Assembly (NCBI RefSeq): GCF_037078405.1
Contig: NZ_JAYMGZ010000003.1
Coordinates: 248,001-312,000, forward strand
DNA: 64,000 nt
Direction: 5' to 3'
From: Haloarcula sp. DT43
Lineage (GTDB): Archaea > Halobacteriota > Halobacteria > Halobacteriales > Haloarculaceae
The notes below the pieces were generated by a model that was given only the letters and a program-made list of their open reading frames with translations, had not been told where the DNA came from and made no database searches. Below, in pieces: positions 1,728 to 24,503 of this stretch (position 1 is the first letter of the stretch; every line of letters starts with the position of its first letter). The position numbers and the translations under genes were made by a program.

Positions 1728-2330
1728 CTACTCTGTGGCGTCTCGAAGGTCTGCCTCGGTGTCGACGTCGCGCCGGACGCCGGGGTCGTCGACGTCGACG
1801 AACCGGACGCCGTCGCCGCGTTCGATCAGGTCCCGCCCCCCGCGGTCGCCGGAGACGGCCGCGAGCGCGTCGAAGTGCCGTCGGTCGAACAGCACGGGGT
1901 TGCCGCGCTGACCGTCGTATCGCGGGACGACGATACTGTCCCCGCCGGTTCGGTACGCCGCGAGGAGTCGGTCGACCGTCCCGGCGCTGACGAACGGCAT
2001 GTCCCCGAGTAGGAAGGCGGCGGCGTCCCAGCTGTTCTCGCGCGCGAACGCGACGCCGCGGCGGACCGAGGTGCTCTGGCCCTCGGGGTAGTCGTCGTTG
2101 TGCCGCACCGCAATCGGGAGACCGTCGAGTGCCGCGCCGACCGCCTCGGCCTCGTGACCGACGACGGCGACGACGTCGTCGAGTTCCGACGCGCACGCGG
2201 TCTCGGCAACGTGTCGGACCAGTGGCGCGCCGTCGACCGAGGCGAGCAGTTTGTTGTTGTCCCCGAACCGGGTGCTGTCGCCGGCGGCGAGGACGACGCC
2301 GCCGATTATCGAGCGGTCGTGTTCAGTCAT
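1728..2330 (-). CDS. mocA: MocA-like molybdenum cofactor nucleotidyltransferase
   Basis: A 200-residue NTP-transferase. The nucleotide-binding signature LAAGDSTRFGDNNKLL (14-29) and the GDMPFV motif (109-114), which holds the metal-binding Asp, match the MocA/YgfJ group. MocA attaches CMP to Mo-molybdopterin to give the dinucleotide cofactor used by xanthine-dehydrogenase-family enzymes. The start MTEHDRS places the signature at the usual distance; a longer upstream reading would overlap yqeC and adds a low-complexity lead. It follows yqeC by 31 bases. In E. coli, ygfJ also lies next to yqeB-yqeC and a selenate-related hydroxylase, so the context strongly supports this call. Confidence 0.9.
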   Translation of the reverse strand: MTEHDRSIIGGVVLAAGDSTRFGDNNKLLASVDGAPLVRHVAETACASELDDVVAVVGHEAEAVGAALDGLPIAVRHNDDYPEGQSTSVRRGVAFARENSWDAAAFLLGDMPFVSAGTVDRLLAAYRTGGDSIVVPRYDGQRGNPVLFDRRHFDALAAVSGDRGGRDLIERGDGVRFVDVDDPGVRRDVDTEADLRDATE

Positions 2331-2361: not shown

Positions 2362-3138
2362 TCAGTCACTGGCCTCCCGCATGGCGGTCCCGACTGGTTC
2401 ACAGACGCCAGTCTCGAAGGAGGTGACGACGCCGCGAGAGAATCGCTCGGTCTGTGCCATCGCGTGGTCGAGCACGTCGCGGGCGGTCGCTCGCAGCTCC
2501 GCCGTGTCGGCCTTGTTCACCAGCGGGACCACGAACGCCGACGACGGGGCGTTCCGGCGGCCGCCCTCTGAATGTGCGAGCACCTCCCCGACTGCCTCAG
2601 CCGTGATTGGGTCACCAACGTCGAGCCCGGTGAGCGCCGCGACGCGCTCCGGGCGGTGGACGGCGTCGGTCGTGAGCGGTTCGCCGACGGCCGCGACCGA
2701 GGCCACCGGCACGACGTGCGTCGCCGCGTTCGGAATCACCGGCTCGTCTTCGCCCGGGGCTTTGAACTCGCGCCGGCGCGCGCCGTCGGCCTTGACCAGC
2801 AGCCGGTCGAAGACGCCGCTGTAGTACACCGACCGAAGGAACTCGGGGTCGAAACCGCGGACCTTCTCGGCGACGCGCTCGGGGTTCGCAACCCACTCGC
2901 GGGCGAAGGCGAGCGGCGGGTCGTGGTCGGAGATGACGTACGGATAGCCGTCGCGGACGGTGAGCGTCAGGGGGAGGTCGGGCGGCGGGGGCATGGCCGT
3001 AGTCGTCGTGAATCCGACGTCGACGCCCTCGCGAGCGCCCTCGGCAGCCAACTGTCCCATCGCGGTCTTCTTCCCGCCGGCCCCCACGAACGCGACGAGC
3101 GCGCGGTCGTCGAGCGCCAGCGCGTCAGTCAGTCGCAT
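2362..3138 (-). CDS. yqeC: YqeC, selenium-dependent molybdenum hydroxylase accessory protein
   Basis: A 258-residue protein with an N-terminal glycine-rich nucleotide-binding loop, VGAGGKKT (18-25), and the family segment VKADGARRREFKAP followed by EDEPVIP. YqeC co-occurs in genomes with orphan SelD and YqeB and marks the pathway that installs a labile selenium on molybdenum hydroxylases; its exact reaction is unknown. The start MRLTDALALDD lies 27 bases downstream, on this strand, of an ATATAG box centred near 3165, so the mRNA is probably leaderless. The gene is divergent from the TusA-like gene and leads a yqeC-mocA-ridA string. Confidence 0.9.
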   Translation of the reverse strand: MRLTDALALDDRALVAFVGAGGKKTAMGQLAAEGAREGVDVGFTTTTAMPPPPDLPLTLTVRDGYPYVISDHDPPLAFAREWVANPERVAEKVRGFDPEFLRSVYYSGVFDRLLVKADGARRREFKAPGEDEPVIPNAATHVVPVASVAAVGEPLTTDAVHRPERVAALTGLDVGDPITAEAVGEVLAHSEGGRRNAPSSAFVVPLVNKADTAELRATARDVLDHAMAQTERFSRGVVTSFETGVCEPVGTAMREASD

Positions 3139-3232: not shown

Positions 3233-3475
3233 ATGGCTCGCGTGGACGTTCGCGGCGAAATCTGTCCCCGACCGGCGCTCATCGTCCGCCGGGAGCTCTC
3301 GGACCTCGAACCCGGGGACACGCTCGTGGTCCGAGGCGACTACCCGCCGGCCGAACAGAATCTCCGCCGGATGTGTACGACCCACGGCTTCGACGTGTCG
3401 ACGGTCGAGTCCGACGGCGACGAGTTCGAACTCCGCCTGCTGGTGACCGAGCTGTCGTCGCTCCCAGACCGGTGA
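3233..3475 (+). CDS. TusA/YedF-like sulfur (selenium) carrier protein
   Basis: An 80-residue protein of the SirA/TusA fold. The signature cysteine is Cys11 in GEICPRPALI, at the tip of the first helix as in TusA and YedF. TusA passes persulfide sulfur to partner proteins; YedF-type paralogues are often found beside selD. Here the stop codon is followed after 2 bases by the ATG of selD, so the two are almost certainly co-translated. The obvious inference is that this protein carries sulfur or selenium at Cys11 for the SelD/hydroxylase system, together with the TusBCD-like trio encoded on the other strand. The chalcogen carried cannot be read from sequence. Confidence 0.88.
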   Translation: MARVDVRGEICPRPALIVRRELSDLEPGDTLVVRGDYPPAEQNLRRMCTTHGFDVSTVESDGDEFELRLLVTELSSLPDR

Positions 3476-3477
3476 CC

Positions 3478-4554
3478 ATGGCGGGCGATGGCCCTGCCGA
3501 CACGGACGCCCCGTCTGGGGAGGACCCCGGGACCGACGGCGGCTCCGACGAACCGCGCCTCACCGAGTACGCGGAACTGCACGGCTGCTCCTGCAAGGTC
3601 GGCCAGAGCGACCTCGACGCGCTCCTCGCCGACGCTTCCCTCACCGACACGCGAGACGAGCTGCTGTTCGGCGTGGGCGAGGACGCCGCCGCCCGCCGGC
3701 TCACCGACGACCTGGCGCTGGTCTCGACGGTGGATTTCTTCACGCCAATCGTCGACGACCCGTACGACTTCGGCCGGGTCGCGGCCTGTAACGCTGCGAG
3801 CGACGCGTTCGCGACGGGCGCGACCGAGAATCTCGACTGCCTCGTCGTCCTCGGACTGCCGCGCGAACTGACCGACAGCGCGGCCCCGCTTCTCGCCGGG
3901 ATGGCCGATGCCCTCGACGCCATGGACGGGGGCGTCGCCGGCGGTCACACCATCATGAGCCCGTGGCCGTTCGCCGGCGGAGCCGTCACCGCGACGGCAC
4001 ACCCCGACGCGCTGCTTACGGCGGCGGGAGCCGGTCCCGGCGATCGGCTCTACCTGACGAAACCGCTCGGGACGCAGTCGGCGATGGGCGCGACGCGCGT
4101 CTCCGACGGCGAGTTCGTCGAAACAGTCCGGGAGGCCACGGACCGTCCCCTCGACCGGCTCGGGGATGAGGCGGTCGCGTGGATGACCACGCCGAACCGC
4201 GACGCAGCGCTGGCATGCCGGGCGTTCGCCACCGCCGCGACAGACGTGACGGGCTTCGGCCTCGCCGGCCAGTGCCGCGTCCTTGCCGAGCGCTCGGGCG
4301 TCGGCGTCGAGCTGACGCACCTCCCGGTCATCGCGGGGACGCCGGCGCTCTCGCGGCTGTTCGGCTACGGACTCGCCGCGGGCGAGAGCGCCGAGACCAG
4401 CGGCGGACTGCTGGTCGCGGTCCCACCGGATTCGATGGCCGACCTCGAAGCCGCCTTCGACGACGCAGAGGTGTTCTACCGCGAAGTCGGCCGCGTCACC
4501 GACGGCAGCGGCGTCACCGTCGACGACCCGACCGTCGAACCGGTCCGCCGCTGA
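3478..4554 (+). CDS. selD: Selenide, water dikinase
   Basis: A 358-residue enzyme that makes selenophosphate from selenide and ATP. The glycine-rich N-terminal active site reads HGCSCKVG with Cys37, Cys39 and Lys40, matching the catalytic Cys17/Cys19/Lys20 arrangement of E. coli SelD; the enzyme uses Cys rather than selenocysteine. ATP-binding segments FGVGEDAA, STVDFFTP and VAGGHTI follow, and TDVTGFGLAGQ is the conserved C-terminal motif. The first 25 residues are an acidic extension typical of halophiles. No selA, selB, selC or Sec-type recoding signal is seen nearby, so this is an orphan selD whose product likely feeds the molybdenum hydroxylases. It converges on the XdhC-YqeB gene. Confidence 0.95.
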   Translation: MAGDGPADTDAPSGEDPGTDGGSDEPRLTEYAELHGCSCKVGQSDLDALLADASLTDTRDELLFGVGEDAAARRLTDDLALVSTVDFFTPIVDDPYDFGRVAACNAASDAFATGATENLDCLVVLGLPRELTDSAAPLLAGMADALDAMDGGVAGGHTIMSPWPFAGGAVTATAHPDALLTAAGAGPGDRLYLTKPLGTQSAMGATRVSDGEFVETVREATDRPLDRLGDEAVAWMTTPNRDAALACRAFATAATDVTGFGLAGQCRVLAERSGVGVELTHLPVIAGTPALSRLFGYGLAAGESAETSGGLLVAVPPDSMADLEAAFDDAEVFYREVGRVTDGSGVTVDDPTVEPVRR

Positions 4555-4629
4555 GAGTTCGTAGGACGCTTCTACTACCGTTCAGGAGGGTCCTAACAAG
4601 GTGACTGCGAATCGGGCGGAGAGGGCCAG

Positions 4630-6210
4630 TCAGCCCAGGCGGAGCGCTGCCTCAAGGACGCCGCCGCCCAGACACAGCGCCTTGTCCGAGATCTTCGTCG
4701 GGTCGACCGACTCGCCGCGGGGGTCGACGTCGCCGAGTTTCGTCCCCTCGGACACGTCGAGGCCGCCGTGGACGAGACCGCGGACGAGGCCGTCGATCTC
4801 CGTCTCGACCGGGCTGTCCCCCACCCGTCCGACCACGTCGCCAGCGGCCACGGTGTCCCCGATGGCGACGGTCGGCTCCCAGGATCCGTCGGTCGGCGCG
4901 CGGAGCACCCGCTCGTGGGTGTAGCCGCGGCGCTCGCCCGGTTCGCCGTCGTAGGCGCTCGCGGTCCCCTCGTAGAACACGCGGCCGAGTTCGTGCCCGC
5001 GGTCGGTCTCAACGACGGCGTCGACGTCCGCGCCGGCCACGAATCCGGGGCCCATCCCGACGACCACGTCGGCGTCACCCCGGCGCGTTCCGGTGTCGAA
5101 TTTCCCCTTCGCCATGATGGCGTCCACGAGGACAGCGGCGTCGAGTTCGTCGGCGACCGCCGCGTCGGGGTCGGCGAGAACCGGCACGTCCCCGGCGGCC
5201 AGAACCTCGATCGCCTCGTCGATATCGTCGGCTCGCCGGCCGGTGACGCCCTCGACGTCTACCTCGCCCTCGTAGAGCGCCGCCCCGAACGCGACCGCCC
5301 GGCGGACGACCGTCGGGCGCTCGACCTCGGTGACGACGACCGGGTAGCCCGCCCGGTGGAGGCGGAAGACGACGCCGCTACCGAGGTCGCCGCCGCCGCG
5401 GACGACGGCGAGGTCGTCGAGGTTGAGGTCGGTGGCGCGCTCACCGGTCGCGCCGTGGCGGTCCATGCTGACCTCCGCGAGGATCGAGAGCGCGACCGCG
5501 GCCGGGCCGCTCCCGCCGAGGTCGAGGCCGACTGGCGTCCGGACGCGAGCGAGGTCGCGCCGAGCGTAGCCAGCCTCGGCGAGCGAGTCGAGGACGTGGT
5601 CGGCCTTCGTCTTGCTAGCGACGAGACCGACGTAGCCCGCGCCGCCGTCCAGCGCCGCGGCGACCGCCTCCTGGTCGAACGTCCCGCTCCGCGTCGCCAC
5701 CGCGACCGCGGTGTCGCGGCCCATCGGCAGGGCCCGGAGTTCCTCGCCGTAGTCCCCGTGGACCACGTCGGTGTCCTCGGGAAACGCCTCGGGGGCGGCG
5801 TACTCCTCGCGGTCGTCCACGACGGTGACGGCGTAGCCCAGTCGTTCGGCCAGCGGCGCGAGGTCGGCGCTGATGTGGCCCGCGCCGGCGACGTAGAGGC
5901 GCGGCCGGCCGCGGACCCGGTCGACGAACACGTCCATCTCGCCGCCACAGACCATTCCCGTGTTGCCGCCGGGTTTGAGTTCGTACGTTCTGACGCCCGG
6001 TTCCCGGTCGCCGGACAGCACCGCGCGGGCGTCCTCGACGGCGAGGTGTTCGACGGTGCCTCCGCCGATGGTCCCGTACTCGTCGCTGGCGGTGACGACC
6101 ATCTTGTCGCCCACGTCCCGCGGGGCGCTCCCGTCCTTGCGGACGATGGTCAACAGCGCCGCCGGGTCGCCCTGGGCGGCGAGTTCGTCGAGACGCTGGA
6201 ACAGGCTCAT
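4630..6210 (-). CDS. yqeB: XdhC-YqeB fusion, molybdenum hydroxylase maturation protein
   Basis: A 526-residue two-part protein. Residues 1 to about 260 are XdhC-like: the CoxI segment with VRKDGSAPRDVG and GTIGGGTVE, then a Rossmann domain starting RPRLYVAGAGHIS. From about 262 on it is YqeB-like, opening with LAVVRGGGDLGSGVVFRL and including DAIMAKGKFDTG and VVGMGPGFVAG. XdhC binds Mo cofactor and guides insertion of the terminal sulfur into xanthine dehydrogenase; YqeB marks the selenium-dependent variant. Having both in one chain suggests cofactor handling and selenium loading are physically coupled. Its ATG overlaps the stop of the preceding TusB-like gene (ATGA). Confidence 0.88.
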   Translation of the reverse strand: MSLFQRLDELAAQGDPAALLTIVRKDGSAPRDVGDKMVVTASDEYGTIGGGTVEHLAVEDARAVLSGDREPGVRTYELKPGGNTGMVCGGEMDVFVDRVRGRPRLYVAGAGHISADLAPLAERLGYAVTVVDDREEYAAPEAFPEDTDVVHGDYGEELRALPMGRDTAVAVATRSGTFDQEAVAAALDGGAGYVGLVASKTKADHVLDSLAEAGYARRDLARVRTPVGLDLGGSGPAAVALSILAEVSMDRHGATGERATDLNLDDLAVVRGGGDLGSGVVFRLHRAGYPVVVTEVERPTVVRRAVAFGAALYEGEVDVEGVTGRRADDIDEAIEVLAAGDVPVLADPDAAVADELDAAVLVDAIMAKGKFDTGTRRGDADVVVGMGPGFVAGADVDAVVETDRGHELGRVFYEGTASAYDGEPGERRGYTHERVLRAPTDGSWEPTVAIGDTVAAGDVVGRVGDSPVETEIDGLVRGLVHGGLDVSEGTKLGDVDPRGESVDPTKISDKALCLGGGVLEAALRLG

Positions 6211-6452
6211 ACGAACGACTTCACCTCCCGCTCGACCAGTAGTTCGACCACCCGGTCGTAGGAGATCGGCTCGATCTCCGGGGGGAGGTCGACCCCGCGA
6301 ACGTCCACGTCCCTCGCGACGGCGGAGACCTGCGCGTCCAGGTCCGGCGTCAGGTAGACGCCGTCCTGGATCAGGACGACGTGAGCGTCGGGGTCGTCAG
6401 CGGCGGTGCGCAGTCCGATTTCGGCCATCGGCTTGTCGATGAGATAGAGCAT
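6207..6452 (-). CDS. TusB/DsrH-like small protein
   Basis: An 81-residue protein with the DsrH fold pattern: MLYLIDKP at the start and VVLIQDGVYL in the middle, the strand that precedes the partner-binding loop. It contains no cysteine, so it cannot itself carry persulfide and would be a structural subunit. It sits third in a TusD-TusC-TusB-like row, 3 bases after the TusC-like gene, and overlaps the XdhC-YqeB start by 4 bases. DsrEFH and TusBCD form heterohexamers that relay sulfur; here the complex would serve hydroxylase maturation (inference). Confidence 0.72.
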   Translation of the reverse strand: MLYLIDKPMAEIGLRTAADDPDAHVVLIQDGVYLTPDLDAQVSAVARDVDVRGVDLPPEIEPISYDRVVELLVEREVKSFV

Positions 6453-6455
6453 GAG

Positions 6456-6809
6456 TCAGAAGTCAAGCGTGTGGTCCGCGTCGCGGATGCGGGCTGCGAC
6501 GCGGTCGCCGGGCCACACCGCCACGTCGTCGGCGATGTCGGCTTCCTCGAGGTCGCGGGCGGCCATCGCGGCGGCGTCCGCGACCATCGTCCCGTCCTGT
6601 TCTTCGAGGTCCGCGACGTGTCCCGTCATGTTCAGCGCGTCCCGGTCGACGGCGTCGCGCGCGCCGTAGACCCCGTCCTGCGTGAACACCACGGTCACGT
6701 CGTGCAGGTCGAACCCGGCTGCGACGCCGCGGGCCGCGCGCAGTCCCTCGGGGACGTGAACCCGGCCGTAGGGCGCGCGGGTCAGCATGACGACCACGTC
6801 GCGCTTCAT
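6456..6809 (-). CDS. TusC/DsrF-like protein
   Basis: A 117-residue DsrE-family protein. MKRDVVVMLTRAPYGRVHVPEGLRAARG matches the N-terminal strand-helix of DsrF/TusC, and VTVVFTQDGVYGA is the second conserved strand. Like TusC it has no conserved redox cysteine (none in the whole chain). It overlaps the upstream TusD-like stop codon by 4 bases, so stoichiometric synthesis of the trio is likely. Confidence 0.75.
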   Translation of the reverse strand: MKRDVVVMLTRAPYGRVHVPEGLRAARGVAAGFDLHDVTVVFTQDGVYGARDAVDRDALNMTGHVADLEEQDGTMVADAAAMAARDLEEADIADDVAVWPGDRVAARIRDADHTLDF

Positions 6810-7177
6810 AGCGAGACCACCCGGTCAGCCTCCCCGAGGACGTCGGCGAGGTCGGGGAGCAGTCCCACCTCGACGCCGTCGGGATAGTCCGCGTCGGCGT
6901 CGATGCCGCGCGCGTCGACGCAGAGCCCGCAGCAGATGACCTCCGCGCCGTCCGAGATGAGTTCCTGGAACTTCGCCGTCGGCATCTCGTCGTACAGCCC
7001 CGAGTCCGAGCAGTCCGGGAAGGACTGGTCGGCGACCGGGACGAGCGCGCCGTCGAGGTAGTGGAAGTACGTCACCTCGTGACCCGCGTCCAGCGCTGCC
7101 CGCCCGAGTTCGTAGGCGGTCCGCCAGCGCTCGCTGTCGAAGGGCCCGCCGGTCAGGAGGAACCCGATGTAAGCCAT
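6806..7177 (-). CDS. TusD/DsrE-like protein with active-site cysteines
   Basis: A 123-residue DsrE/TusD-type protein starting MAYIGFLLTGGPF. It is the only member of the trio with cysteines: Cys56, and Cys82, Cys83 and Cys86 in the loop VICCGLCVDARG, placed where TusD/DsrE carries its persulfide cysteine. In the bacterial relay TusA hands sulfur to TusD. A TusA-like gene with Cys11 lies 3.5 kb away beside selD, so a complete relay set is encoded here. It follows the first hydroxylase large-subunit gene by 71 bases and starts the maturation part of the operon. Confidence 0.8.
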   Translation of the reverse strand: MAYIGFLLTGGPFDSERWRTAYELGRAALDAGHEVTYFHYLDGALVPVADQSFPDCSDSGLYDEMPTAKFQELISDGAEVICCGLCVDARGIDADADYPDGVEVGLLPDLADVLGEADRVVSL

Positions 7178-7248: not shown

Positions 7249-9714
7249 TCAGTCGTCTCCGTCTCTCGCGTCGAGGGCGGCCCGCAGGTCCTCGTCAGTG
7301 AACGGCAGGTCGGTCAGGCGGACGCCGACGGCATCGCGAATGGCGTTCGACAGCGCCGGCGGCACGCCGTTGGTCGGGAGCTCTGCGATGGACTTCGCGC
7401 CGAAGGGACCCGTCGGCTCGTGGGTCTCGACGAGGATGGTCTCCATCGGCGGGTGGTCCGTCGTCCGGGGCATCCCGTACTGCCGGAAGCCCTGCACCTC
7501 GGGGTTACCCTCCTCGTCGAACGAGAGGCCGCCGCTGGTGGCGTACTCGAGGCTCATGTGTTCGCCGCCCTCGATCTGCCCCTCGACGAGGGCGGGATTG
7601 ATGGCGACGCCGCAGTCGGCCGCGAACACCAGCTTGTTCAGTTCGTACTCGCCGGTCTCCTCGTTCACCGTCACGTCCGCAAACTGCGCGCCGTAGGGCG
7701 GCGGGCTCTCGTCGGTCGAGTGGTTCCCGTCGCCGAGGATGTGCTCGCGCTCGTCGTCGCCGTAGGCCGCCTCGTACCCGATCTCGTCCAGCGAGACGCG
7801 GTTCCCGGTTTCCTCGCTGTACACCGCGCCGTCGCCGGTGTCGAGGACCTCGGGCGGTTCCTCGAGCAGCTTCGAGCCCCAGTCGAGCAGTCGCTCCTTG
7901 GCGTCCTCGGCTGCGTTCTTGACCGCGCGGCCGCTGATGTACGTTGTCGAGGAGGCGTACGCGCCGTAGTCGAAGGGCGTCAGGTCGGTGTCAGCGGCGA
8001 CGACGACGATATCTTCGGGCGGACAGCCGAGTACCTCCGCGGCGATCTGTGAGAACATCGTGTCCGCGCCGGTACCGGTGTCGACGCCGCCGACCTGGAG
8101 GTGGAAGCTCCCGTCCTCGTTCATCTTCACCTGGGCCGCGCCGAGTTCCTTGCCCGCGACGCCGCTGCCCTGCGCGATGAGGGCCATCCCGACGCCGCGG
8201 TGCAGGTGCGCTTCCTCGGGCTGTTCGAGGTCGTCGTAGCCGATTGCGTCCTTCCCGCGTTCGACGCACTCGCGGATGCCACAGGAGCGGATCTGCCGCT
8301 CGAATCGGTCGTCGTCTTTCAGGATCGCGACGCTCCGGTCGAGGTCCCCCTCGCGGACCGCGTTCCGCAGACGGAACTCGATCGGGTCGAGGTCGAGGCG
8401 GCGGGCCACCTCGTCCATGTGGGACTCGACGGCGAAGTGACCCTGCGGTGCGCCGTAGCCCCGCATCGCCGCGCCCATCGGGAGGTTCGTGTGGACCACG
8501 TCGCCCGAGAAGCGGACGTTCGGGACCCGCGGGTAGATGGGCAGGGGCTTCGTCCCGACGTTGTTCGCGACGGTCATGCCGTGCGTGCCGTAGGCCCCCG
8601 AGTTCGACAGCGTGTAGAGGTCCATCGCCTCAATGTCGCCGTCGTCGGTGACGGCCGTCCGCATTTGCATCCGCATCGGATGCCGGAAGCGAAGCGCGGT
8701 GAACTCCTCCCGTCGGGTCATCTCCAGTTTGACCGGGCGACCGGCCGCGAGATGGAGCGCGAACGTGATCGGCTCGATGGCCATCTCCTGTTTCGAACCG
8801 AACCCCGCGCCGATTCGGGGTTTCGTCACGCGCACGTCGCGGATGGGCACGTCGAACAGGTGCGAGATCTGCCGGCGCGTGTGGAAGGGGACCTGCGTCG
8901 CCGTGATGAACACGTGGCGGTCGTCCTCGTCGGTGTAGGCGATGGTGGCGTGTGGCTCCGGGACGCAGTGGGACTGGTACGGCGTCTCCCACTCGGTCTC
9001 GACGACGTGGACGCCCTCGCCGCTCGCCGCTGCCTCGAACGCCGCGTCCACGTCACCCAGTTCCCCCTCGAAGTGCGATTCGAGGTTCTTCGCGTAGTCC
9101 GCGCCCGATTGCTTGTTCTCCACGTCGTCCGTCTCGAACAGTTGGGGGGCGTCCTCGTCCAGCGCCGCCTCGGGGTCGAACACCGCGTCGAGTTCGCGGT
9201 ACTCGACCTCGACTTTGCGGGCCGCGCGGTCGGCGGTGTCCGCGTCCTCGGCGGCGACGGCCGCGACGGGGTCGCCGACGAACCGGACGTGCTCGCGCAG
9301 GACCGTCAGGTCCCATGGGCTGGGTTCCGGATAGGACTGGCCGGAACTGGAGTACAGTTCGTCCGGGACCACGTCGTCGAACGGCGTGATGACCGCGTAG
9401 ACGCCGTCCATCGCCTCGGCCGCGCTGGTGTCGATGGACTCGACGTGCCCGTGGGCGACGTCGCTGCGCACCACTTTTCCGTGGGCGAGGGCCGGGAACC
9501 GGTCCCGGTAATCGGCCGTGTAGCGTGCCTCGCCGGTGACGATCTTGCGCGCGTCGTCTTTCTCCTCGTCGGTCGTGATGCTCTCGCGCTCGTCCGGCGC
9601 CTTGCGGTCCGGTTCTCTCGCCGCGCCCTCCACCGTTCCGCCGGTGGCCTCCTCCTCCGCCCGTACGCCGTCGGGTCCGTCGTCGAGTTCCGATGCGTCC
9701 TCCGAGTCGCTCAT
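7249..9714 (-). CDS. Xanthine-dehydrogenase-family molybdenum hydroxylase, large subunit 1
   Basis: An 821-residue Mo-binding subunit. After an acidic 50-residue lead, the aldehyde-oxidase a/b hammerhead domain begins near KIVTGEARYTADY. Cofactor motifs follow: GAGFGSKQE, AMRGYGAPQGHF and VGGVDTGTGADT. The catalytic glutamate is Glu778 in KSIAELPTN, equivalent to the GVGE motif of xanthine dehydrogenase. Reaction: hydroxylation of a purine or other N-heterocycle at Mo. It overlaps its 2Fe-2S subunit gene (ATGA) and precedes the TusDCB-like genes. Substrate is inferred from the purine-type neighbourhood; nicotinate or other heterocycles are alternatives. Confidence 0.88.
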   Translation of the reverse strand: MSDSEDASELDDGPDGVRAEEEATGGTVEGAAREPDRKAPDERESITTDEEKDDARKIVTGEARYTADYRDRFPALAHGKVVRSDVAHGHVESIDTSAAEAMDGVYAVITPFDDVVPDELYSSSGQSYPEPSPWDLTVLREHVRFVGDPVAAVAAEDADTADRAARKVEVEYRELDAVFDPEAALDEDAPQLFETDDVENKQSGADYAKNLESHFEGELGDVDAAFEAAASGEGVHVVETEWETPYQSHCVPEPHATIAYTDEDDRHVFITATQVPFHTRRQISHLFDVPIRDVRVTKPRIGAGFGSKQEMAIEPITFALHLAAGRPVKLEMTRREEFTALRFRHPMRMQMRTAVTDDGDIEAMDLYTLSNSGAYGTHGMTVANNVGTKPLPIYPRVPNVRFSGDVVHTNLPMGAAMRGYGAPQGHFAVESHMDEVARRLDLDPIEFRLRNAVREGDLDRSVAILKDDDRFERQIRSCGIRECVERGKDAIGYDDLEQPEEAHLHRGVGMALIAQGSGVAGKELGAAQVKMNEDGSFHLQVGGVDTGTGADTMFSQIAAEVLGCPPEDIVVVAADTDLTPFDYGAYASSTTYISGRAVKNAAEDAKERLLDWGSKLLEEPPEVLDTGDGAVYSEETGNRVSLDEIGYEAAYGDDEREHILGDGNHSTDESPPPYGAQFADVTVNEETGEYELNKLVFAADCGVAINPALVEGQIEGGEHMSLEYATSGGLSFDEEGNPEVQGFRQYGMPRTTDHPPMETILVETHEPTGPFGAKSIAELPTNGVPPALSNAIRDAVGVRLTDLPFTDEDLRAALDARDGDD

Positions 9715-10298
9715 GTCTCGCCCCCCGAGCAGTCACACCTGCCGGGCGGACAGCCCGAATCGAGCGTCCCGCCGGCCGCGCCGTCGGGCGGTGCGTCCCC
9801 GTCGATCGGGGGGCCCCCGTCGGTCGCCACCGCGCGGCTCTCGTCCAGCCGGTCTGCGGCGTCGAGCACGGCCTCCACGATCTTCTTGTAGCCCGTACAC
9901 CGACAGAGGTTGTCCGAGAGGGCCTCACGGACCTCCCGCTCCGTCGGATCGGGGTTCTCATCCAGGAGCGCTTTCGAGCGCATGATCATCCCCGGGATGC
10001 AGAAGCCACACTGCAGCGCGGTGTTGTCCACGAAGGCCTGCTGGACCGGGTGCAGGTCGTCCTGCTCGCCGAGTCCCTCGATTGTCTGAACCGACGCCCC
10101 CTCGGCTTTCGTCACGGGCGTCACGCACGACAGCGTCGCCTCGCCGTCGACGTGGACCGTACAGAAGCCGCAGGCCCCGGTGTCACACCCTCGCTTCGCG
10201 CCGGTGTACCCGTTGGCCCGCAGCACGTCCAGGAGGGAGTCGGACTTCGACGCCTCGAACGTCTCCGTCTCGCCGTTCACGTCCAGTTCGATTTGCAT
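9711..10298 (-). CDS. 2Fe-2S subunit 1 of molybdenum hydroxylase
   Basis: A 195-residue CoxS/XdhC-type iron-sulfur protein. The plant-ferredoxin cluster is held by Cys38, Cys43, Cys46 and Cys58 (GCDTGACGFC...C), and the second cluster by Cys97, Cys100, Cys132 and Cys134 (CGFCIPGM, CRCTGY); all eight are present. It passes electrons out of the Mo centre. Start MQIELDVNGE is preferred by alignment with the second copy; an ATG three codons earlier is possible. The last 40 residues are an unusual Gly/Pro-rich tail ending CPPGRCDCSGG with three extra cysteines. No FAD subunit gene lies beside it. Confidence 0.9.
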   Translation of the reverse strand: MQIELDVNGETETFEASKSDSLLDVLRANGYTGAKRGCDTGACGFCTVHVDGEATLSCVTPVTKAEGASVQTIEGLGEQDDLHPVQQAFVDNTALQCGFCIPGMIMRSKALLDENPDPTEREVREALSDNLCRCTGYKKIVEAVLDAADRLDESRAVATDGGPPIDGDAPPDGAAGGTLDSGCPPGRCDCSGGET

Positions 10299-10401
10299 AT
10301 GGCTCATCAGCTCGCTAACTATATCGGCTACGTGACGCCCAGAACCGTAAATAGCTATCGCGGACAGCGGCTCGCACACGGGAATCTGTGGTCGCCGCCG
10401 G

Positions 10402-12852
10402 TCAGTGCTCGCGCTCGTCCAGTTTCGCGCGAATCTTCTCGGCGGTTATCGGCATCTCCCGGATTCGGACGCCGACGGCGTCACGGACGGCGTTCGACAG
10501 CGCCGGCGGGACCGTGTTCGTCGGCACTTCAGCGACGGACTTCGCGCCGAACGGACCCGTCGGCTCGTGGGTCTCGACGAGGATGGACTCGATGGGCGGC
10601 GTCTCGGTGGCCGACGGGAGGTGGTACTCGTCGAAGTCCGACACCTCGGCGCGGCCCGCCTCGTCGAGCGTGATGCCCTCGCTGACGGCCAGCTCGTAGC
10701 TCATGTGGTTCGCGCCCTCGACCTGGCCCTCGGCCATGCCGGGGTTGATGGCGACGCCGCAGTCGACGGCGACCACCAGCTTGTGGACGTCGAACTCGCC
10801 GGTCTCCTCGTTCACCGTCACGTCCACGAACTGGGCGGCGAAGGGCGGGGGGCTCTCCTCGGTGCAGTGGGTGCCCTTCCCGAGGATGTGCTCGCGCTCC
10901 TCGTCGCCGTAGGCCGCCTCGTAGCCGATATCTTCGAGCGTGACCGAGTCGCCGGTTTCCTCGCTGTACACCGTACCGTCGCCGGTGTCGAGGTCAGCCA
11001 CGGGCTCGTCCAGAAGCTTCGCCCCCCACTCCAAGATCCGCTCTCTGGCGTCTTCGGCGGCCTTCTTCACCGCCATCCCGCTGATGTAGGTGGTCGAAGA
11101 CGCGTACGCACCGTAGTCGAAGGGCGTCACGTCCGTGTCCGATGAGCGGACGACGATCTGCTCCTCGTCACAACCCAGCACCTCGGCTGCGATCTGGAGG
11201 AAGGCGGTGTCAGCGCCCGTGCCGATGTCGACGCCGCCGACCTGCAGGTGGAAGCTCCCGTCCTCGTTCATCATGAGCTGTGCGGCCCCGAGTTCGTCGC
11301 CGGCGACGCCGGTTCCCTGGGCGGACAGCGCCATGCCGACGCCGCGGTGCAGGTGGTCTTCCTCGGGCTGTTCCACGTCGTCCCAGCCGATGGCCGCCTT
11401 CCCGCGCTCGATGCACTCGTCGAGACCACAGGAGCGGATACGCCGTTCCGCCCCTTCGCCGCCCATCATCCCGGCGATTTCGTCCAGGTCGCCGACCTCC
11501 ATGTAGTGGCGCTGTCGGAACTCGACGGGGTCGAGGTCGAGGTCGCGGGCCACCTCGTCGAGGTGGCCCTCCAGCGCGAGCGTGCCCTGTGGCGCGCCGT
11601 AGCCCCGCATCGCACCGGTCTGGGGCGTGTTCGTGTGGACGATGTCGGCCTCGAAGTGGACGTTCGGGACCTTCGAGTACAGCGGCAGCGGCTTGCTCCC
11701 GACGTTACCCGCGACGGTCATGCCGTGACTGCCGTACGCGCCGGTGTTCGACAGCGCGTAGATGTCGATGGCCGCGATGTCGCCGTCGTCGGTGACGGCC
11801 GTCTTCGCCCTGACTTTCATCGGGTGGCGCGAGCGCATCGCGTAGAACTCCTCCTCGCGCGTGGCCTCGTACAGGACCGGGCGGTCGATTTCGAGCGAGA
11901 GGGCGAGCGGAATCGGTTCGACGACCATCGCCTGCTTGCCGCCGAACCCGCCGCCGACGCGCGGTTTCTTCACCCGGATGTCCCGGATGGGGATGTCGAA
12001 GAGGTGCGCCAGCTGGCGGCGCGTGTGGTTCGGGACCTGCGTGCTGGTGACGAGGACGTGGCGGTCGTCCTCGTTGCAGTAGGCCAGCGACGTGTGCTTC
12101 TCGACGTTGGCGTGGGACTGCCGGATGGTCTCCCACTCCGTCTCGTGGACGTGCACGTCGTCGCCGTCGAGGGCGCTCTCGGGGTCGCCGAGTTCCCCCT
12201 CGATGCTCGCCATGCGGTTGCGGTCGTAGTCGTGGCCGACGATTTCGTTCTCCACCTCGTCCTCGCCGAACAGCTGCGGCGCGTCGGCGTCGAAGGCCGC
12301 CTCGGGGTCGGTGACGTAGTCGTACGCCTCGTAGCTCACGTCGACGGCGTCGGCGGCGGCCCGGGCCGTCTCTGCGTCCTCTGCGGCGACGGCGGCGACG
12401 GGGTCGCCCACGTAGCGGACGTGCTCGTTCAGGACGTGCATGTCCCACGGACTGGGCTCGGGGTAGGACTGCCCGGCGCTGGTGTACTTCGCGTCGGGGA
12501 CCGCGTCGGAGTCCGGCGTGAGGACGGCCGCGACGCCGTCCATCGCCTCGGCCGCGCTCGTGTCGATGTCGGTGACCCGCCCGTGAGGAATCTCGCTGCG
12601 GACGACCGCGGCGTAGGCGAGGTCCGGATACCGCTCCTCGTAGTCGGCGGTGTACTTCGCCTGCCCGGTGACGAGCTTGCGGTCGTCGTACTTCTCGGCG
12701 CGCTGGGAGACGCTGTCGCGCTCGCCCGGCGAGAGGTCGTTGTTCGCCGGTTCGTCCCACTCCAGTGGGTGTTCCTCGACGCGCTCCTCTCCGACGCCCT
12801 CGGGCTGTGACGCCGTCCCCCCGTCGGCTTCGACCGTTTCGTCGTCACTCAT
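10402..12852 (-). CDS. Xanthine-dehydrogenase-family molybdenum hydroxylase, large subunit 2
   Basis: An 816-residue paralogue of the gene to its left, alike over nearly the whole length (for example ESILVETHEPTGPFGAKS against the same string in copy 1). It keeps the hammerhead entry KLVTGQAKYTADY, the Mo-cofactor loop GGGFGGKQ, AMRGYGAPQG and catalytic Glu775 in KSVAEVPTN. I took MSDDETVEADGG as start; the frame stays open upstream but only through the partner gene. It overlaps that partner by 8 bases. The two pairs look like a tandem duplication that has diverged, perhaps towards different substrates such as hypoxanthine and xanthine (inference). Confidence 0.88.
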   Translation of the reverse strand: MSDDETVEADGGTASQPEGVGEERVEEHPLEWDEPANNDLSPGERDSVSQRAEKYDDRKLVTGQAKYTADYEERYPDLAYAAVVRSEIPHGRVTDIDTSAAEAMDGVAAVLTPDSDAVPDAKYTSAGQSYPEPSPWDMHVLNEHVRYVGDPVAAVAAEDAETARAAADAVDVSYEAYDYVTDPEAAFDADAPQLFGEDEVENEIVGHDYDRNRMASIEGELGDPESALDGDDVHVHETEWETIRQSHANVEKHTSLAYCNEDDRHVLVTSTQVPNHTRRQLAHLFDIPIRDIRVKKPRVGGGFGGKQAMVVEPIPLALSLEIDRPVLYEATREEEFYAMRSRHPMKVRAKTAVTDDGDIAAIDIYALSNTGAYGSHGMTVAGNVGSKPLPLYSKVPNVHFEADIVHTNTPQTGAMRGYGAPQGTLALEGHLDEVARDLDLDPVEFRQRHYMEVGDLDEIAGMMGGEGAERRIRSCGLDECIERGKAAIGWDDVEQPEEDHLHRGVGMALSAQGTGVAGDELGAAQLMMNEDGSFHLQVGGVDIGTGADTAFLQIAAEVLGCDEEQIVVRSSDTDVTPFDYGAYASSTTYISGMAVKKAAEDARERILEWGAKLLDEPVADLDTGDGTVYSEETGDSVTLEDIGYEAAYGDEEREHILGKGTHCTEESPPPFAAQFVDVTVNEETGEFDVHKLVVAVDCGVAINPGMAEGQVEGANHMSYELAVSEGITLDEAGRAEVSDFDEYHLPSATETPPIESILVETHEPTGPFGAKSVAEVPTNTVPPALSNAVRDAVGVRIREMPITAEKIRAKLDEREH

Positions 12853-13396
12853 CGCAGTCACCCCCACAGCACCCGACTGACCTCGCGCCGCGGGACGGCG
12901 CACCGACCGACCGGCCGCCGTCGGCGGCGACGCCCTCCTCGCGCATCCGGCCGGCGGCGTCGAGTACCGCTTCGACGGGCTTCTGGTAGCCGGTGCAGCG
13001 ACAGACGTTGTCCTCAAGCGCCTCGCGGACCTCCCGCTCGGTCGGGTCCGGATTCTCGGATAGCAACGCCGTCGCCTCGACGATCATCCCCGGAATGCAG
13101 AAGCCACACTGGACGGCGAAGTTGTCCACGAAGGCCTGCTGGACCGGGTGTAAGTCGTCCTGCGTGCCCAGCGACGCGACCGTCCGAACGTCGCTGCCCT
13201 CGGCCTCGGTCGCGGCCATGCCACAGGCCATGCGTACCTCGTCGTCGACGAACACCTTCGACGCGCCGCAGGTGCCGCCGTCGCAGCCGCACTTCACGTC
13301 GATGTGGCCGTGCTGTCTCAGTACCGTCGCCAGGTCCTGCTCGGTCCCGGCTTCGACTGTCGTCCGCTCGCCGTTGAGTGTGAGTTGGATTTCCAC
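12845..13396 (-). CDS. 2Fe-2S subunit 2 of molybdenum hydroxylase, altered cluster ligand
   Basis: A 183-residue CoxS-type protein starting at GTG with a good Shine-Dalgarno-like GGAGGG 6 bases upstream on this strand, so this start is better than ATGs further out. The second cluster is intact (CGFCIPGM, CRCTGY). In the first cluster, Cys38, Cys43 and Cys58 remain but the third ligand is Ser46 (CGCDGGTCGAS); an extra Cys36 lies two residues before. I checked the codon: TCG, so it is not a reading-frame artefact. The tail ends CCGGDCDE with three more cysteines, like copy 1. Electron transfer may be tuned or the cluster may use Cys36 (inference). Confidence 0.88.
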   Translation of the reverse strand: MEIQLTLNGERTTVEAGTEQDLATVLRQHGHIDVKCGCDGGTCGASKVFVDDEVRMACGMAATEAEGSDVRTVASLGTQDDLHPVQQAFVDNFAVQCGFCIPGMIVEATALLSENPDPTEREVREALEDNVCRCTGYQKPVEAVLDAAGRMREEGVAADGGRSVGAPSRGARSVGCCGGDCDE

Positions 13397-13450
13397 GGAG
13401 TTCCCTCCAGTCTCTCGGCATGCGCTGTACACGCACGCCTGTTAGTGCCC

Positions 13451-13617: not shown

Positions 13618-14850
13618 TCACTCGGCGGCCTTCGCACGGACCGCTTCGAGGAGGACCTCGGCCCCGGTGACGACGTCCTCCCACTCGGTGAACTCGCTCT
13701 CGCGGTGGCTGATGCCGTCGACGCTCGGGACGAAAATCATGCTCGTCGGCGTTATCTTGTTGAGGTAGTTCGCGTCGTGGCCCGCGCCGCTGACCAGTCG
13801 CGTGTATTCACAGCCGACCGTCTCGGCGGCGTCGACGACCGTGTCGATGCAGTCCCGGTCGAACGGGTCTGCGTCGACGCGCATGATTTGCTCGACCTCG
13901 TAGTCGAGTCCCTCGCGCTCGGCGGCGTTGGCGATTTCTCGCTCGATGCGCTCGATAGCCGCGTCGACCGCCGCGTCGTCGTACGAGCGGAAGTCGAGCG
14001 TGAACTCCACGCGCTCGGGGATGACGTTGATGGCGTTGGGCCACACGTCGACGCTACCGACCGTCCCGACGAGGTCCGTGCCCTCGGTCGCGGTGATGCG
14101 CCGGACCGCCCGCGTCACGTCCGCCGTGGCGACGAACGCGTCGTGGCGCATGTCCATCGGCGTCGGCCCGGCGTGGTTGGCCTGCCCCTCGAAGCTGACG
14201 TTCAGCCAGGCGAAGCCGAACACGCCCTCGACGGCGGCGACGGGGATGTCCTGCTGTTCGAGGAACGGCCCCTGTTCGACGTGCATCTCGAAGTAGCAGT
14301 GGATGTCGTCGGCCTCGCAGGGAACGTCGCCCTTGTAGCCGATGCGTTCGAGCTCCTCGCCGAACCGCTTGCCGTCTTTGTCCTCGCGCGCGTAGGCGTA
14401 GTCGAGGTCGAACACGTCGCAGTAGACGCCACTACCGAGCATGTCTGGCTGGAAGCGCACGCCCTCCTCGTTGCTCCAGGCGACGACCTCCAGCGGCCGC
14501 TCGGTCGTCTCGCCGGCGTCGTTCAGCGCCTCGACGACTTCGAGCGCGCCGAGGACGCCCACGACGCCGTCGTACCGCCCGCCGTTGTACTGGCTGTCGA
14601 CGTGTGAGCCGAACAGCACCGGCGCGGCGTCGCCGTCGGCTCCCTCCCGCCGGCCGAAGATGTTGCCCATCGTGTCGATTCGGACCGCCAGCCCGGCGTC
14701 CCGGAACCACTCGACGAGCGCGTCCCGGGCCTCTCGGTTTGCGTCCGAGAGGCTCGGCCTGTTCACTCCGCCCCGCTCCGTCGCGCCTATCTCGTTGAAC
14801 GTGTCGAATCGCCGTCTGAACCGCTCGCTGTCGAGACTGACGGATGGCAT
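13618..14850 (-). CDS. M20-family amidohydrolase (allantoate amidohydrolase / N-carbamoyl-amino-acid hydrolase)
   Basis: A 410-residue zinc or manganese hydrolase of the hydantoinase/carbamoylase group. Metal-site motifs are visible: GSHVDSQYNGGRYDG (His and Asp), the EEG acid pair in WSNEEGVRFQ, MHVEQGP (His), and GAGHDANYL near the C-terminus. FEGQANHAGPTPMDMRHDA is the dimerisation-domain signature. Such enzymes open allantoate or remove carbamoyl groups from N-carbamoyl amino acids. With an allantoinase-like gene 14 kb away, allantoate is the likely substrate. The start MPSVSLDSERFRRRFD gives the normal family length; the long open frame upstream runs through the divergent neighbour and is spurious. 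Confidence 0.88.
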   Translation of the reverse strand: MPSVSLDSERFRRRFDTFNEIGATERGGVNRPSLSDANREARDALVEWFRDAGLAVRIDTMGNIFGRREGADGDAAPVLFGSHVDSQYNGGRYDGVVGVLGALEVVEALNDAGETTERPLEVVAWSNEEGVRFQPDMLGSGVYCDVFDLDYAYAREDKDGKRFGEELERIGYKGDVPCEADDIHCYFEMHVEQGPFLEQQDIPVAAVEGVFGFAWLNVSFEGQANHAGPTPMDMRHDAFVATADVTRAVRRITATEGTDLVGTVGSVDVWPNAINVIPERVEFTLDFRSYDDAAVDAAIERIEREIANAAEREGLDYEVEQIMRVDADPFDRDCIDTVVDAAETVGCEYTRLVSGAGHDANYLNKITPTSMIFVPSVDGISHRESEFTEWEDVVTGAEVLLEAVRAKAAE

Positions 14851-14908
14851 TGGGTAGCTGTTCCGTGGCGTCGTCTTGAAGATTGCGTCGGGAGTGGGGT
14901 CACACACC

Positions 14909-14934
14909 TGTGGCACGCGACGCCCGCCGCCACA
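14909..14934. promoter_or_regulatory. TGTGGC...GCCACA pair in a divergent promoter
   Basis: In the 136-base gap between the amidohydrolase and D-aminoacylase-like genes, TGTGGC (14909-14914) and GCCACA (14929-14934) form an inverted pair with 14 bases between. Both half-sites extend into runs of CACACAC. It matches the words found upstream of other genes in the island and could control both divergent genes. Confidence 0.4.
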
Positions 14935-14986
14935 CACGGTCGGGGCCACCGAAAGAGCCAAACGACCGTTCCGCGAGTCGGCAGAC

Positions 14987-16702
14987 ATGACAGAGCCGAG
15001 TGCCGCGTCTATCGCGTTTCGGGACGCGCGGGTACTGGACGGGAGCGGCGGCCCTCCGTTCACTGCGAGCGTGCGCGTCGCCGAGGGCCGAATCGACGCT
15101 ATCAGCGACGCCCCGCTGGACGCCGACCGCGTCGTGGACCTCGACGGGTCGTATCTCGCGCCGGGGTTCATCGACATGCACGCGCATTCGGAACTGCGGC
15201 TGTTCGAGCACCCCGGGGCCGAGGAGAAACTGACGCAGGGAATCACGACGGAAGTCCTCGGGCAGGACGGGGTCAGCGTCGCCCCGGTCCCGGCGAACCT
15301 CACGGCGGAGTGGGAGGAACGGGTCAAGTCACTCGACGGGAGCCTCGACGACACGTGGCCCTGGCACACCGTCGACGGCTACCTCGCGGCGCTCGACGGT
15401 GCCGACCCGGCCGTCAACTGCGCGTACTACGCCCCGCACGGCAACATCCGGTCGATGCTGGCCGGGTTCGAGGACCGCCCGCTCACCGACGAACGCGTCG
15501 TCGCCGCCGGCCCGGTCACGGACCAGCGCCTGGCGGCCCACGAGTTCGACGGCGACGCGCCGCCCGGGGAACTGGACGTGCTCCAGCAGGAACTGGAAGT
15601 GGCCCTCGAAGAGGGCGCGTTCGGCATGTCCAAGGGGATGATATACCCGCCCAGTTCCTACGCCCGCGACGACGAGCTGGTGGCGCTCGCGGACACGCTC
15701 GCCGAGCGCGACTCGTTCATGGTCTCGCACGTCTGGAACGAGACGGACCGCGTGGTCGAGTCAATCGACCGGTACCTCGACATCTGTCGCCAGGCCGGCT
15801 GCCACGCTCACGTCTCCCACCTCAAGGTCGGCGGCCAGCAGAACTGGGGCGACTCCGAGGCCGTGCTCGACCTGTTCGAGGACGCCGGCCAGCGGGGCCA
15901 ACGGGTCACCTTCGACCAGTACCCCTACACGGCCGGGTCGACGATGCTGACCGCGCTCCTCCCGCCGTGGGCGCGCCAGGGCGAGTCCGACGACATCCGC
16001 CACCGCCTCAACTCCGCGGCCGTCCGCGACCGCATCGCCGACGACATCGCCCGGCCGGGTGACTGGGAGAACCTCGCCTACGCCGCCGGCTCCTGGGACA
16101 ACATCCTCGTGACGCGGACGGGGAGCGGTCGCCACCAGGGCGAGACCATCGCGGACGTCGCCGCCGAGATGGACCGCGAACCGGTCGACGCGATGTGTGA
16201 ACTGCTCGTCGCGGAGGAACTGGACGTGACGATGGCCGACTTCGTGATGGCCGAGGAAGACATCGAGCGGTTCCTCGCCGACGACCGCGGCACGTTCTGC
16301 ACCGACGGCATCTTCGGCGGGAAGCCCCACCCCCGGGCCATCGGGGCGTTCGGCCGCATCCTCGAACGCTACGTCCGGGAGCGGGACGTGCTCTCGCCGG
16401 CACTGATGGCCCGCAAGGCCGCCGGCAACCCGGCCGACATCCTGGGTCTCAGGGACCGCGGCTACGTCCGGGAGGGGTACGTCGCGGACCTCGTGGCCTT
16501 CGACCTCGACGCCGTGTCCGCGAACGCCACCTACGAGGAACCGTTCCAGTACACTGACGGGATGGAGTACGTCCTCGTGGGCGGCGAAATCGCCGTCCGG
16601 GACGGCGAGCCGACCAGTGCCCGGAACGGCGCGGTGCTGCGCTCCTACGAGGAGTGGGGCAGTGCGAGCCGGCCGACTCTCGACCGGGCTGCCGGGGACT
16701 AG
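14987..16702 (+). CDS. N-acyl-D-amino-acid deacylase family amidohydrolase
   Basis: A 571-residue metal-dependent hydrolase. The beta-barrel entry PGFIDMHAHSELRLFEHPGAEEKLTQGITTEVLGQDGV is characteristic of the D-aminoacylase group (broken here by its His-x-His and the QGITT segment). SKGMIYPPSSYA, SHLKVGG and TFDQYPYTAGST are further family motifs, and GTFCTDG holds the catalytic Asp. It would deacylate N-acyl-D-amino acids or related cyclic-ureide products in the cytosol. The ATG chosen is the first that gives a family-like N-terminus; upstream codons lie in the promoter region. Its role in the purine island is unclear; clean-up of D-configured carbamoyl or acyl products is possible. Confidence 0.85.
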   Translation: MTEPSAASIAFRDARVLDGSGGPPFTASVRVAEGRIDAISDAPLDADRVVDLDGSYLAPGFIDMHAHSELRLFEHPGAEEKLTQGITTEVLGQDGVSVAPVPANLTAEWEERVKSLDGSLDDTWPWHTVDGYLAALDGADPAVNCAYYAPHGNIRSMLAGFEDRPLTDERVVAAGPVTDQRLAAHEFDGDAPPGELDVLQQELEVALEEGAFGMSKGMIYPPSSYARDDELVALADTLAERDSFMVSHVWNETDRVVESIDRYLDICRQAGCHAHVSHLKVGGQQNWGDSEAVLDLFEDAGQRGQRVTFDQYPYTAGSTMLTALLPPWARQGESDDIRHRLNSAAVRDRIADDIARPGDWENLAYAAGSWDNILVTRTGSGRHQGETIADVAAEMDREPVDAMCELLVAEELDVTMADFVMAEEDIERFLADDRGTFCTDGIFGGKPHPRAIGAFGRILERYVRERDVLSPALMARKAAGNPADILGLRDRGYVREGYVADLVAFDLDAVSANATYEEPFQYTDGMEYVLVGGEIAVRDGEPTSARNGAVLRSYEEWGSASRPTLDRAAGD

Positions 16703-16759
16703 CCAACCGCCAGCCGGTCGGAGACTTCTCCGTCTGCCACCTACACCAACGACGCGACG

Positions 16760-16784
16760 AAAAAACGGTCCGCGAACCGGACCG
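16760..16784 (-). terminator. Hairpin plus T-run after the first BMP lipoprotein gene
   Basis: Read leftward, arms CGGTCC (complement of 16779-16784) and GGACCG enclose a 7-base loop and are followed at once by six T residues. It begins 2 bases after the lipoprotein stop codon, so it is well placed to end that transcript between two convergent genes. Confidence 0.55.
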
Positions 16785-16786
16785 CG

Positions 16787-17905: not shown

Positions 17906-18100
17906 TACTGAACTGCATAGATGTAACGGAAACTGCTACTTAAGCTATCCCATCTCTGACCTTGCAGCGAACGAATATTTCCATCGAAACTGACTGAATG
18001 GCTGGCTTTAGGCGTGAGAATCAGACGTACGTCCCGTCATCGGACAGAAAGGAACCGCAATCGGCAGGCGGCTACCGGCCGCCGGGGACCGTCGGTGGCG

Positions 18101-19243: not shown

Positions 19244-19551
19244 CGACTAACCGACTGTCCATTGCGGAAACATTCACTTAAATCGTTCCGTTCACGCATC
19301 TTTCTCTCCGATATCTTCCAAATATCTGCCACAGAAGCCCCACTATCACATACTGATTGGTGAAAAACTGCAGTATATGTGCATACCGGCGTCGTTCGCA
19401 CCCGGGGAGCGTGACCGTCGCCGACGGACGCTAACACACACCGACTGACATTTGGCAAACGTCCGGTATATCCCGTCTGGACGGCGAATATCACTGCCTT
19501 TGGAAACAATTATGCCACTACATAGTCGATACCCGGCCAAGAACAGACAGC
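19244..19551. promoter_or_regulatory. 308-base divergent control region, BMP lipoprotein 2 / ABC ATPase
   Basis: No convincing gene. It is AT-richer than its flanks. For the leftward lipoprotein a TTAAA/TTTAAG box lies about 34 bases before the start (near 19277). For the rightward ATPase an AACAATTATG box lies about 45 bases before its ATG. One GCCACA half-site of the type common in this island is at 19328-19333, next to a run AATATCTTCCAAATATCTGCC with a repeated AAATATCT-like word. Confidence 0.5.
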
Positions 19552-23302: not shown

Positions 23303-23381
23303 TACTGTTGGCTGTACCTTCGTGAAAATATTCGCCTCCTCGATGAGGCCATCTGCTTCACGTGAGTACAGCCGACAGTAT
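23302..23381. repeat. 80-base symmetric palindromic element
   Basis: The whole segment pairs with itself about the point between 23341 and 23342. The outer 16 bases ATACTGTTGGCTGTAC match the complement of the last 16 (GTACAGCCGACAGTAT) with one mismatch. An inner block CGTGAA/TTCACG and a central block GCCTC..GAGGC also pair, with short unpaired steps of 3 and 6-7 bases at mirrored places. It overlaps the last base of the permease stop codon. It could be a small non-autonomous inverted-repeat element (MITE or REP-like) or a very long terminator-like stem. Confidence 0.7.
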
Positions 23382-23419
23382 GACCCCAGCGGCCGGCCAC
23401 ACCTCCCACAGACCGTGTG

Positions 23420-24499: not shown

Positions 24500-24503
24500 G
24501 CGC

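Follow-up and report, generated by a model that had tools for sequence, protein, structure and literature searches.

The loading of labile selenium onto molybdenum is described as the least understood pathway of selenium use, and in Clostridioides difficile the loss of yqeB and that of selD lead to the same purine phenotype, YqeB being needed for selenium-dependent xanthine use as much as SelD (PMC11448449). The pathway parts implicated so far are SelD, YqeB and, weakly, YqeC. Haft & Self (2008) and Zhang et al. (2008) described the closest haloarchaeal case, an orphan-SelD locus on pNG700 of Haloarcula marismortui. Here, we analysed a window of 64,000 nucleotides from Haloarcula sp. DT43 (NCBI RefSeq GCF_037078405.1, contig NZ_JAYMGZ010000003.1, positions 248,001 to 312,000, forward strand), which shares with that locus a SirA-like protein, SelD, YqeC, MocA, an XdhC-YqeB fusion and two molybdenum hydroxylases. 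Next to xdhC-yqeB stand three small genes similar to tusD/dsrE, tusC/dsrF and tusB/dsrH (hereafter ‘the trio’), which add to the pathway three candidate genes for the delivery of selenium (or sulfur). We propose that they encode a chalcogen-carrier complex dedicated to the selenium-cofactor pathway of haloarchaea and feeding XdhC-YqeB, an interpretation to which we give slightly better than even credence.

Organization and distribution of the trio

The genes in question are the following (window coordinates, strand):

3233..3475, + strand: TusA-like protein, 80 amino acids (PF01206, 2.2e-18), with Cys11 (CPxP) and Cys48
3478..4554, + strand: selD, selenide water dikinase (NF010705, 312 bits; TIGR00476, 272 bits; both over cut-off), with the HGCSCK active-site motif
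4630..6210, − strand: XdhC-YqeB fusion, molybdenum cofactor (Moco) chaperone plus selenium-cofactor maturation factor (PF13478, 5e-36; TIGR03309, 360 bits, over cut-off)
6207..6452, − strand: TusB/DsrH-like protein, 81 amino acids (PF04077, 3.4e-6, over cut-off)
6456..6809, − strand: TusC/DsrF-like protein, 117 amino acids (PF02635, 4e-9; TIGR03010, 3e-7; DsrF structure 2hy5_B, 1.1e-6)
6806..7177, − strand: TusD/DsrE-like protein, 123 amino acids (PF02635, 2.7e-19), with the motif I-C82-C83-G-L-C86-V-D-A-R-G

An initial annotation, made from the window alone, had the TusA-like gene joined to selD and the trio running into xdhC-yqeB by 4-base overlaps. The first pair is indeed adjacent, but as two separate genes with a 2-base spacer, and the trio runs along the other strand. 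Overlaps of 4 bases are found between tusD and tusC (6806-6809) and between tusB and yqeB (6207-6210), whereas tusC and tusB are parted by a gap of 3 bases here and of 1-8 bases in other loci.

The distribution of these genes was then surveyed in 391 haloarchaeal genomes, TusD-like proteins being scored as present at E < 1e-50, and YqeB and SelD over their own cut-offs. The 30 genomes that encode YqeB are exactly those with true SelD and exactly those with the TusD-like protein, and they span nine genera and five families; trio-negative members of the same genera are devoid of all three markers. The probability of identical sets is approximately 1e-45 for one pair, a naive value that ignores relatedness and block transfer. 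For the co-occurrence with yqeB and with mnmA that the initial annotation suggested tabulating, the sets are thus identical for yqeB, and mnmA is absent from all 391 genomes. The same annotation had also considered that the trio might be widespread without yqeB or selD: no such case was found for orthologous TusD-like proteins within Halobacteria. Relatives of DsrE and DsrH do occur in organisms without an over-cut-off SelD, e.g. Thermotoga maritima and Methanosarcina, so that the family itself is no selenium marker.

Gene order, overlaps and cysteines were compared in the 30 trio loci (one per genome). The order tusD-tusC-tusB-xdhC/yqeB and both 4-base overlaps are kept in all of them, down to 60% identity between YqeB proteins, just as tusA always adjoins selD and the trio always lies on the strand opposite to selD. 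Such an arrangement, conserved in 30 genomes across nine genera, is far beyond chance. In six loci (L057, L060, L062-L065), the hydroxylase genes are located several kilobases away or inverted and the trio-yqeB unit is nonetheless intact, which indicates that the partner of the trio is the maturation gene and not the enzyme. Moreover, 121 further haloarchaeal genomes possess XdhC without the trio, which thus cannot be a general requirement for XdhC-assisted sulfuration of Moco.

The locus is patchy and often plasmid-borne. A decayed version on contig 102 of Natronococcus jeotgali (L067/L085) retains a 34-residue tusD remnant beside a molybdenum subunit, and neither yqeB nor an over-cut-off selD was found in this genome. 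Elsewhere, ratios of non-synonymous to synonymous substitution rates (dN/dS) of 0.06-0.35 for the trio genes, and of 0.08-0.17 for TusD, denote purifying selection on all genes, strongest on TusD in most comparisons. A contig scan with the TusD alignment yielded 18 loci, all haloarchaeal, although the patterns used (RWRTAYEL, FHYLD) would miss distant relatives.

Family identity and conserved cysteines

At the level of Pfam, the three adjacent genes display PF02635 twice and PF04077 once over the gathering score, the latter matching 20 of 20 TusB-like orthologues. The NCBIfam equivalog models are not reached: TusC scores 30.4 bits (TIGR03010, cut-off 94.15), TusB 27.6 bits (TIGR03011, cut-off 49.2) and TusD 19.2 bits (TIGR03012, cut-off 89.25). 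Since all three proteins fall far below these cut-offs and TusE/DsrC (PF04358) is absent from the DT43 genome, the ‘full’ Tus relay of the initial annotation has to be abandoned. Profile comparisons associate the TusB-like protein with E. coli TusB and Thermotoga TM0979 (6e-7) and the TusC-like protein, among solved structures, with DsrF, while the TusD-like protein ranks YchN before TusD and TusD before YedF. In a tree with long branches, 20 trio TusD-like proteins make up a single clade (96/96), and TusC of E. coli is joined by the TusC-like proteins (90/74).

For the TusA-like protein, the best NCBIfam match in three of four orthologues is the N-terminal domain of selenium_YedF, below cut-off (hhalign 96.9%). 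A ‘split YedF’ appeared attractive because the CGxC motif aligns, but the profile ranking, the tree (in which the YedF DsrE domain stands apart) and TIGR03527 (one match in 20, E 0.07) did not bear it out. TusA also has paralogues in the DT43 genome. One (L089, C3:446580-447352) precedes a gene of the DsrE family, has thioredoxins and a rhodanese/metallo-beta-lactamase protein in its vicinity, and looks like a component of persulfide or general sulfur metabolism; the other (C3:101292) lies beside an SQR-like protein and looks like general sulfur metabolism as well (neighbours named by eye in both cases).

Conserved cysteines of the putative relay are limited to the TusA-like (C11, C48) and TusD-like (C82, C83, C86) proteins in all 30 genomes, the scattered cysteines of the TusB-like and TusC-like proteins being unconserved. 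The initial claim that only the TusA- and TusD-like members carry cysteines, as in the bacterial relay, is thus correct for conserved residues. However, the TusD-like protein exhibits in every locus a CxxC-type motif, CCGLC, instead of the single catalytic cysteine of TusD: the invariant C83 aligns with the catalytic Cys78 of E. coli TusD, and C86 with the second cysteine of the YchN and YedF CxxC, which TusD lacks. The HGCSCK motif of SelD is likewise found in 30 of 30. On the side of XdhC-YqeB, two cysteines are invariant throughout. C88 belongs to the CGG motif of the XdhC half, which a clostridial XdhC and the YqeB of E. coli share; C513 lies in the best-conserved motif of YqeB, SDKALC(L/V)GGG. 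The position of C513 is occupied by Ala or Ser in the YqeBs with which it was compared (E. coli, Enterococcus faecalis, Peptoclostridium and Collinsella), and this residue is a candidate acceptor in the haloarchaeal YqeB.

The CGxC motif itself was examined as a potential selenium signature and discarded. Solo DsrE proteins of haloarchaea (L104-L112) carry ACGTCLDSR, mostly in genomes without true SelD, so that the motif is not selenium-specific.

A candidate route to molybdenum and its alternatives

From these residues, a simplest path can be drawn. SelD, a known enzyme, would provide selenophosphate, and the activated atom would be borne, in persulfide or perselenide form, by Cys11 of the TusA-like protein and Cys83 of the DsrE-type subunit (with Cys86 and Cys82 as partners). 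The CGxC-bearing subunit would be held in a hetero-oligomer with the TusC-like and TusB-like subunits, which lack conserved cysteines. The atom could then pass from TusA C11 to TusD C83, with the assistance of C86/C82, and on to C513 of YqeB and/or C88 of the XdhC half, the candidate acceptors, before reaching the molybdenum of the cofactor presumably held by XdhC. The loaded cofactor would finally be handed to the two XdhA-like hydroxylases encoded upstream. Two of these steps have described counterparts: the Cys78-equivalent position carries sulfur in DsrE (PMC3397948), and XdhC binds Moco during its sulfuration by a cysteine desulfurase, then passes it to xanthine dehydrogenase (PMC10609526). 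What the sequences show is the presence of the genes, their constant order and overlaps, the identical distribution of the three markers, the conserved cysteines, purifying selection and the lack of tRNA clients; complex formation, transfer chemistry, direction and the choice of selenium as the atom are what we infer.

Regarding this atom, selenium is modestly favoured over sulfur, owing to the pairing of selD with tusA and to the SelD-restricted distribution. SelU and SepSecS are absent from all 30 trio genomes, leaving selenophosphate in these organisms without a known use besides the YqeB-dependent one. Two further observations are suggestive only: UxxC motifs have been recorded in DsrE-like selenoproteins (PMC9312934), and tusA/tusD transcripts of Methanococcus maripaludis rise by approximately 4.5 log2 on selenium depletion (PMC11097638). 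The more specific proposal, in which a TusA/DsrE-DsrF-DsrH-type relay was converted from sulfur to selenium, with a SelD-derived perselenide travelling from TusA Cys11 through TusD Cys83 to Cys513/Cys88 and molybdenum, is put forward tentatively, and we deem it somewhat less probable than its negation. If true, it would fill part of the gap in the insertion machinery of the third pathway of selenium use, and we know of no earlier DsrEFH/TusBCD-type relay dedicated to selenium.

The presumed clients and the rest of the cluster are as follows:

7249..9714, − strand: molybdenum hydroxylase large subunit, XdhA-like, presumed client (MoCoBD domains; NF043082, 652 bits, below cut-off)
9711..13432, − strand: second XdhA-like molybdenum subunit and two [2Fe-2S] subunits, presumed clients (NF043082, 665 bits; synteny with annotated H. 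marismortui pNG700)
2362..3138, − strand: yqeC, selenium cofactor biosynthesis (TIGR03172, 191 bits, over cut-off)
1728..2330, − strand: MocA/YgfJ-like Moco nucleotidyltransferase (TIGR03310, 155 bits, below cut-off 186)

SelD, YqeB and YqeC are therefore all over curated cut-offs in the same genome, as in the selenium-cofactor trait of selenium-dependent molybdenum hydroxylases. Two neighbouring regions deserve mention. At 292-1182 (− strand) lies a substrate-binding protein of the PhnD type. Among NCBIfam models it matches best TIGR04553, a putative selenate ABC (ATP-binding cassette) transporter family (184 bits, cut-off 250), and it possibly represents selenium uptake beside the cluster. 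The 13618-30299 region encodes an allantoate-amidohydrolase-type enzyme, the xanthine permease PbuX (over cut-off), a sugar/nucleoside-type ABC transporter and, at 29001-30299, an SsnA-like aminohydrolase; this purine-catabolism neighbourhood suggests purines as substrates of the hydroxylases.

Several points weigh against a selenium-cofactor carrier. The two well-known uses of selenophosphate need, as far as we know, no persulfide-type relay. The trio is not found in the inspected loci of YqeB-bearing bacteria (those four of the C513 comparison), so that the pathway as such does not depend on it; in haloarchaea, it may take the place of YedF/DUF3343 or of some other carrier. Perfect co-occurrence would also result from a cassette that is transferred as a block and often located on plasmids. 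The affinity of the TusD-like protein is split between TusD and YchN by profile and tree, its AlphaFold model is too poor for use (predicted local distance difference test score, pLDDT, 52.6), its motif recurs in the solo DsrE proteins, and the contrast at C513 relies on four bacterial YqeBs only. Finally, sulfur is the atom suggested by what is known of the chemistry of these families.

This last point is the core of an alternative in which the sulfur brought by the trio becomes the sulfido ligand of XdhC-YqeB-bound Moco (or the dithiolene sulfur), selenium being exchanged later by another route. TusBCD and DsrEFH proteins carry sulfur (PMC3397948, PMC13293266), bacterial Moco synthesis is supported by TusA (PMC7759655), and the desulfurase-dependent sulfuration on XdhC cited above fits as well; yet the 121 trio-less genomes with XdhC and the occurrence of the trio only with SelD among the 391 genomes make this account rather improbable. 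A little more weight, although we still regard it as unlikely, goes to a function before SelD, the TusA-like and TusDCB-like proteins binding and reducing elemental or thiol-bound selenium by CxxC redox chemistry, and either presenting selenide to SelD or buffering toxic selenium, a function of the kind suggested for bacterial YedF. The constant adjacency of tusA and selD is in line with this possibility, as are the proximity of the TusA profile to the N-terminal domain of YedF, the alignment of the CGxC motifs, the location of YedF and DUF3343 next to selD in bacteria and the redox role proposed for bacterial YedF (PMC5322559). On the other hand, it is xdhC-yqeB and not selD that the trio overlaps, selD being on the opposite strand in all loci, and in the tree, whose branches are long, the trio protein is separate from the DsrE domain of YedF.

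The two remaining explanations are much weaker. The trio might be a neutral or unrelated passenger, e.g. a carrier for sulfur oxidation, that became fixed in a mobile cassette for purine catabolism, as the patchy and often plasmid-borne state of the locus would allow; the order and overlaps maintained down to 60% YqeB identity while enzyme genes were shuffled, the low dN/dS and the joint loss with yqeB and selD render this very improbable. A relay for the 2-thiouridine of transfer RNA (tRNA), of the E. coli kind, for which the family resemblance to TusA and TusBCD would argue, is ruled out with close to certainty. MnmA (TIGR00420) was detected in none of the 391 genomes, which eliminates a tRNA role through MnmA and, by the same token, deprives the lack of a nearby mnmA, correctly noted in the initial annotation, of any weight as neighbourhood evidence. 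TusE is missing, 361 haloarchaea do without the trio, and an NcsA/TtuA family member is present in all five trio genomes tested; in Haloferax, 2-thiouridine at position 34 is made by NcsA-SAMP2-UbaA (PMC5372739). The initial suggestion of a relay recruited to the Mo cofactor instead of tRNA is consequently well supported as to the association with the selenium-cofactor genes, given the link to SelD and YqeB, the lack of MnmA, SelU and SepSecS, the presence of NcsA/TtuA and the XdhC-only genomes, but not as to a full Tus relay.

For the proposed carrier complex feeding XdhC-YqeB, the identical distribution, the overlaps and the mappable reactive cysteines reduce the question to a handful of point mutations and of transfer assays between pairs of proteins. 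The host organisms are attractive in this respect, their SelD being apparently without another client.

Comparison with known systems

The E. coli TusA-TusBCD-TusE-MnmA system resembles the haloarchaeal set in its TusA, its tusD-tusC-tusB order with contact between tusD and tusC, and its cysteine in the TusD equivalent with none conserved in the B and C equivalents. It differs by its TusE and MnmA, by the scores of the haloarchaeal proteins below equivalog cut-offs, by a single cysteine in place of CxxC and by the haloarchaeal linkage to YqeB and SelD. DsrEFH offers the same three-gene DsrE/F/H set, with a TusC-like protein matching DsrF. However, known sets go with dsrAB and, in the bacterial type II, with tusA-yeeE (PMC13293266); as for type I, Cys20 of DsrH has no conserved counterpart in the TusB-like protein, and DsrC is not encoded in the DT43 genome. 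Bacterial YedF (TIGR03527) and DUF3343 loci also combine TusA-type and CGxC DsrE-type domains beside selD, but YedF, a TusA-DsrE fusion, is a single chain without B and C partners, its DsrE domains do not group with the trio protein in the tree, and it is reported absent from archaea (PMC5322559). TusAD of M. maripaludis (MMJJ_07490-50) may provide an archaeal parallel as TusA and TusD genes responding to selenium status (PMC11097638), although in a methanogen that uses selenocysteine.

In H. marismortui pNG700, the trio is annotated as two ‘DsrE family proteins’ and one ‘hypothetical protein’, with no dsr genes annotated around the orthologue. The portions of Haft & Self (2008) and Zhang et al. 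(2008) that were consulted say nothing of three DsrE/F/H-like genes next to yqeB, and no paper on the trio was found in a literature search whose coverage excluded most subscription journals. Thus, the locus without the trio has been known since 2008, and the new part is the attachment to the selenium-cofactor pathway of the trio, a putative carrier complex of the DsrEFH/TusBCD type.

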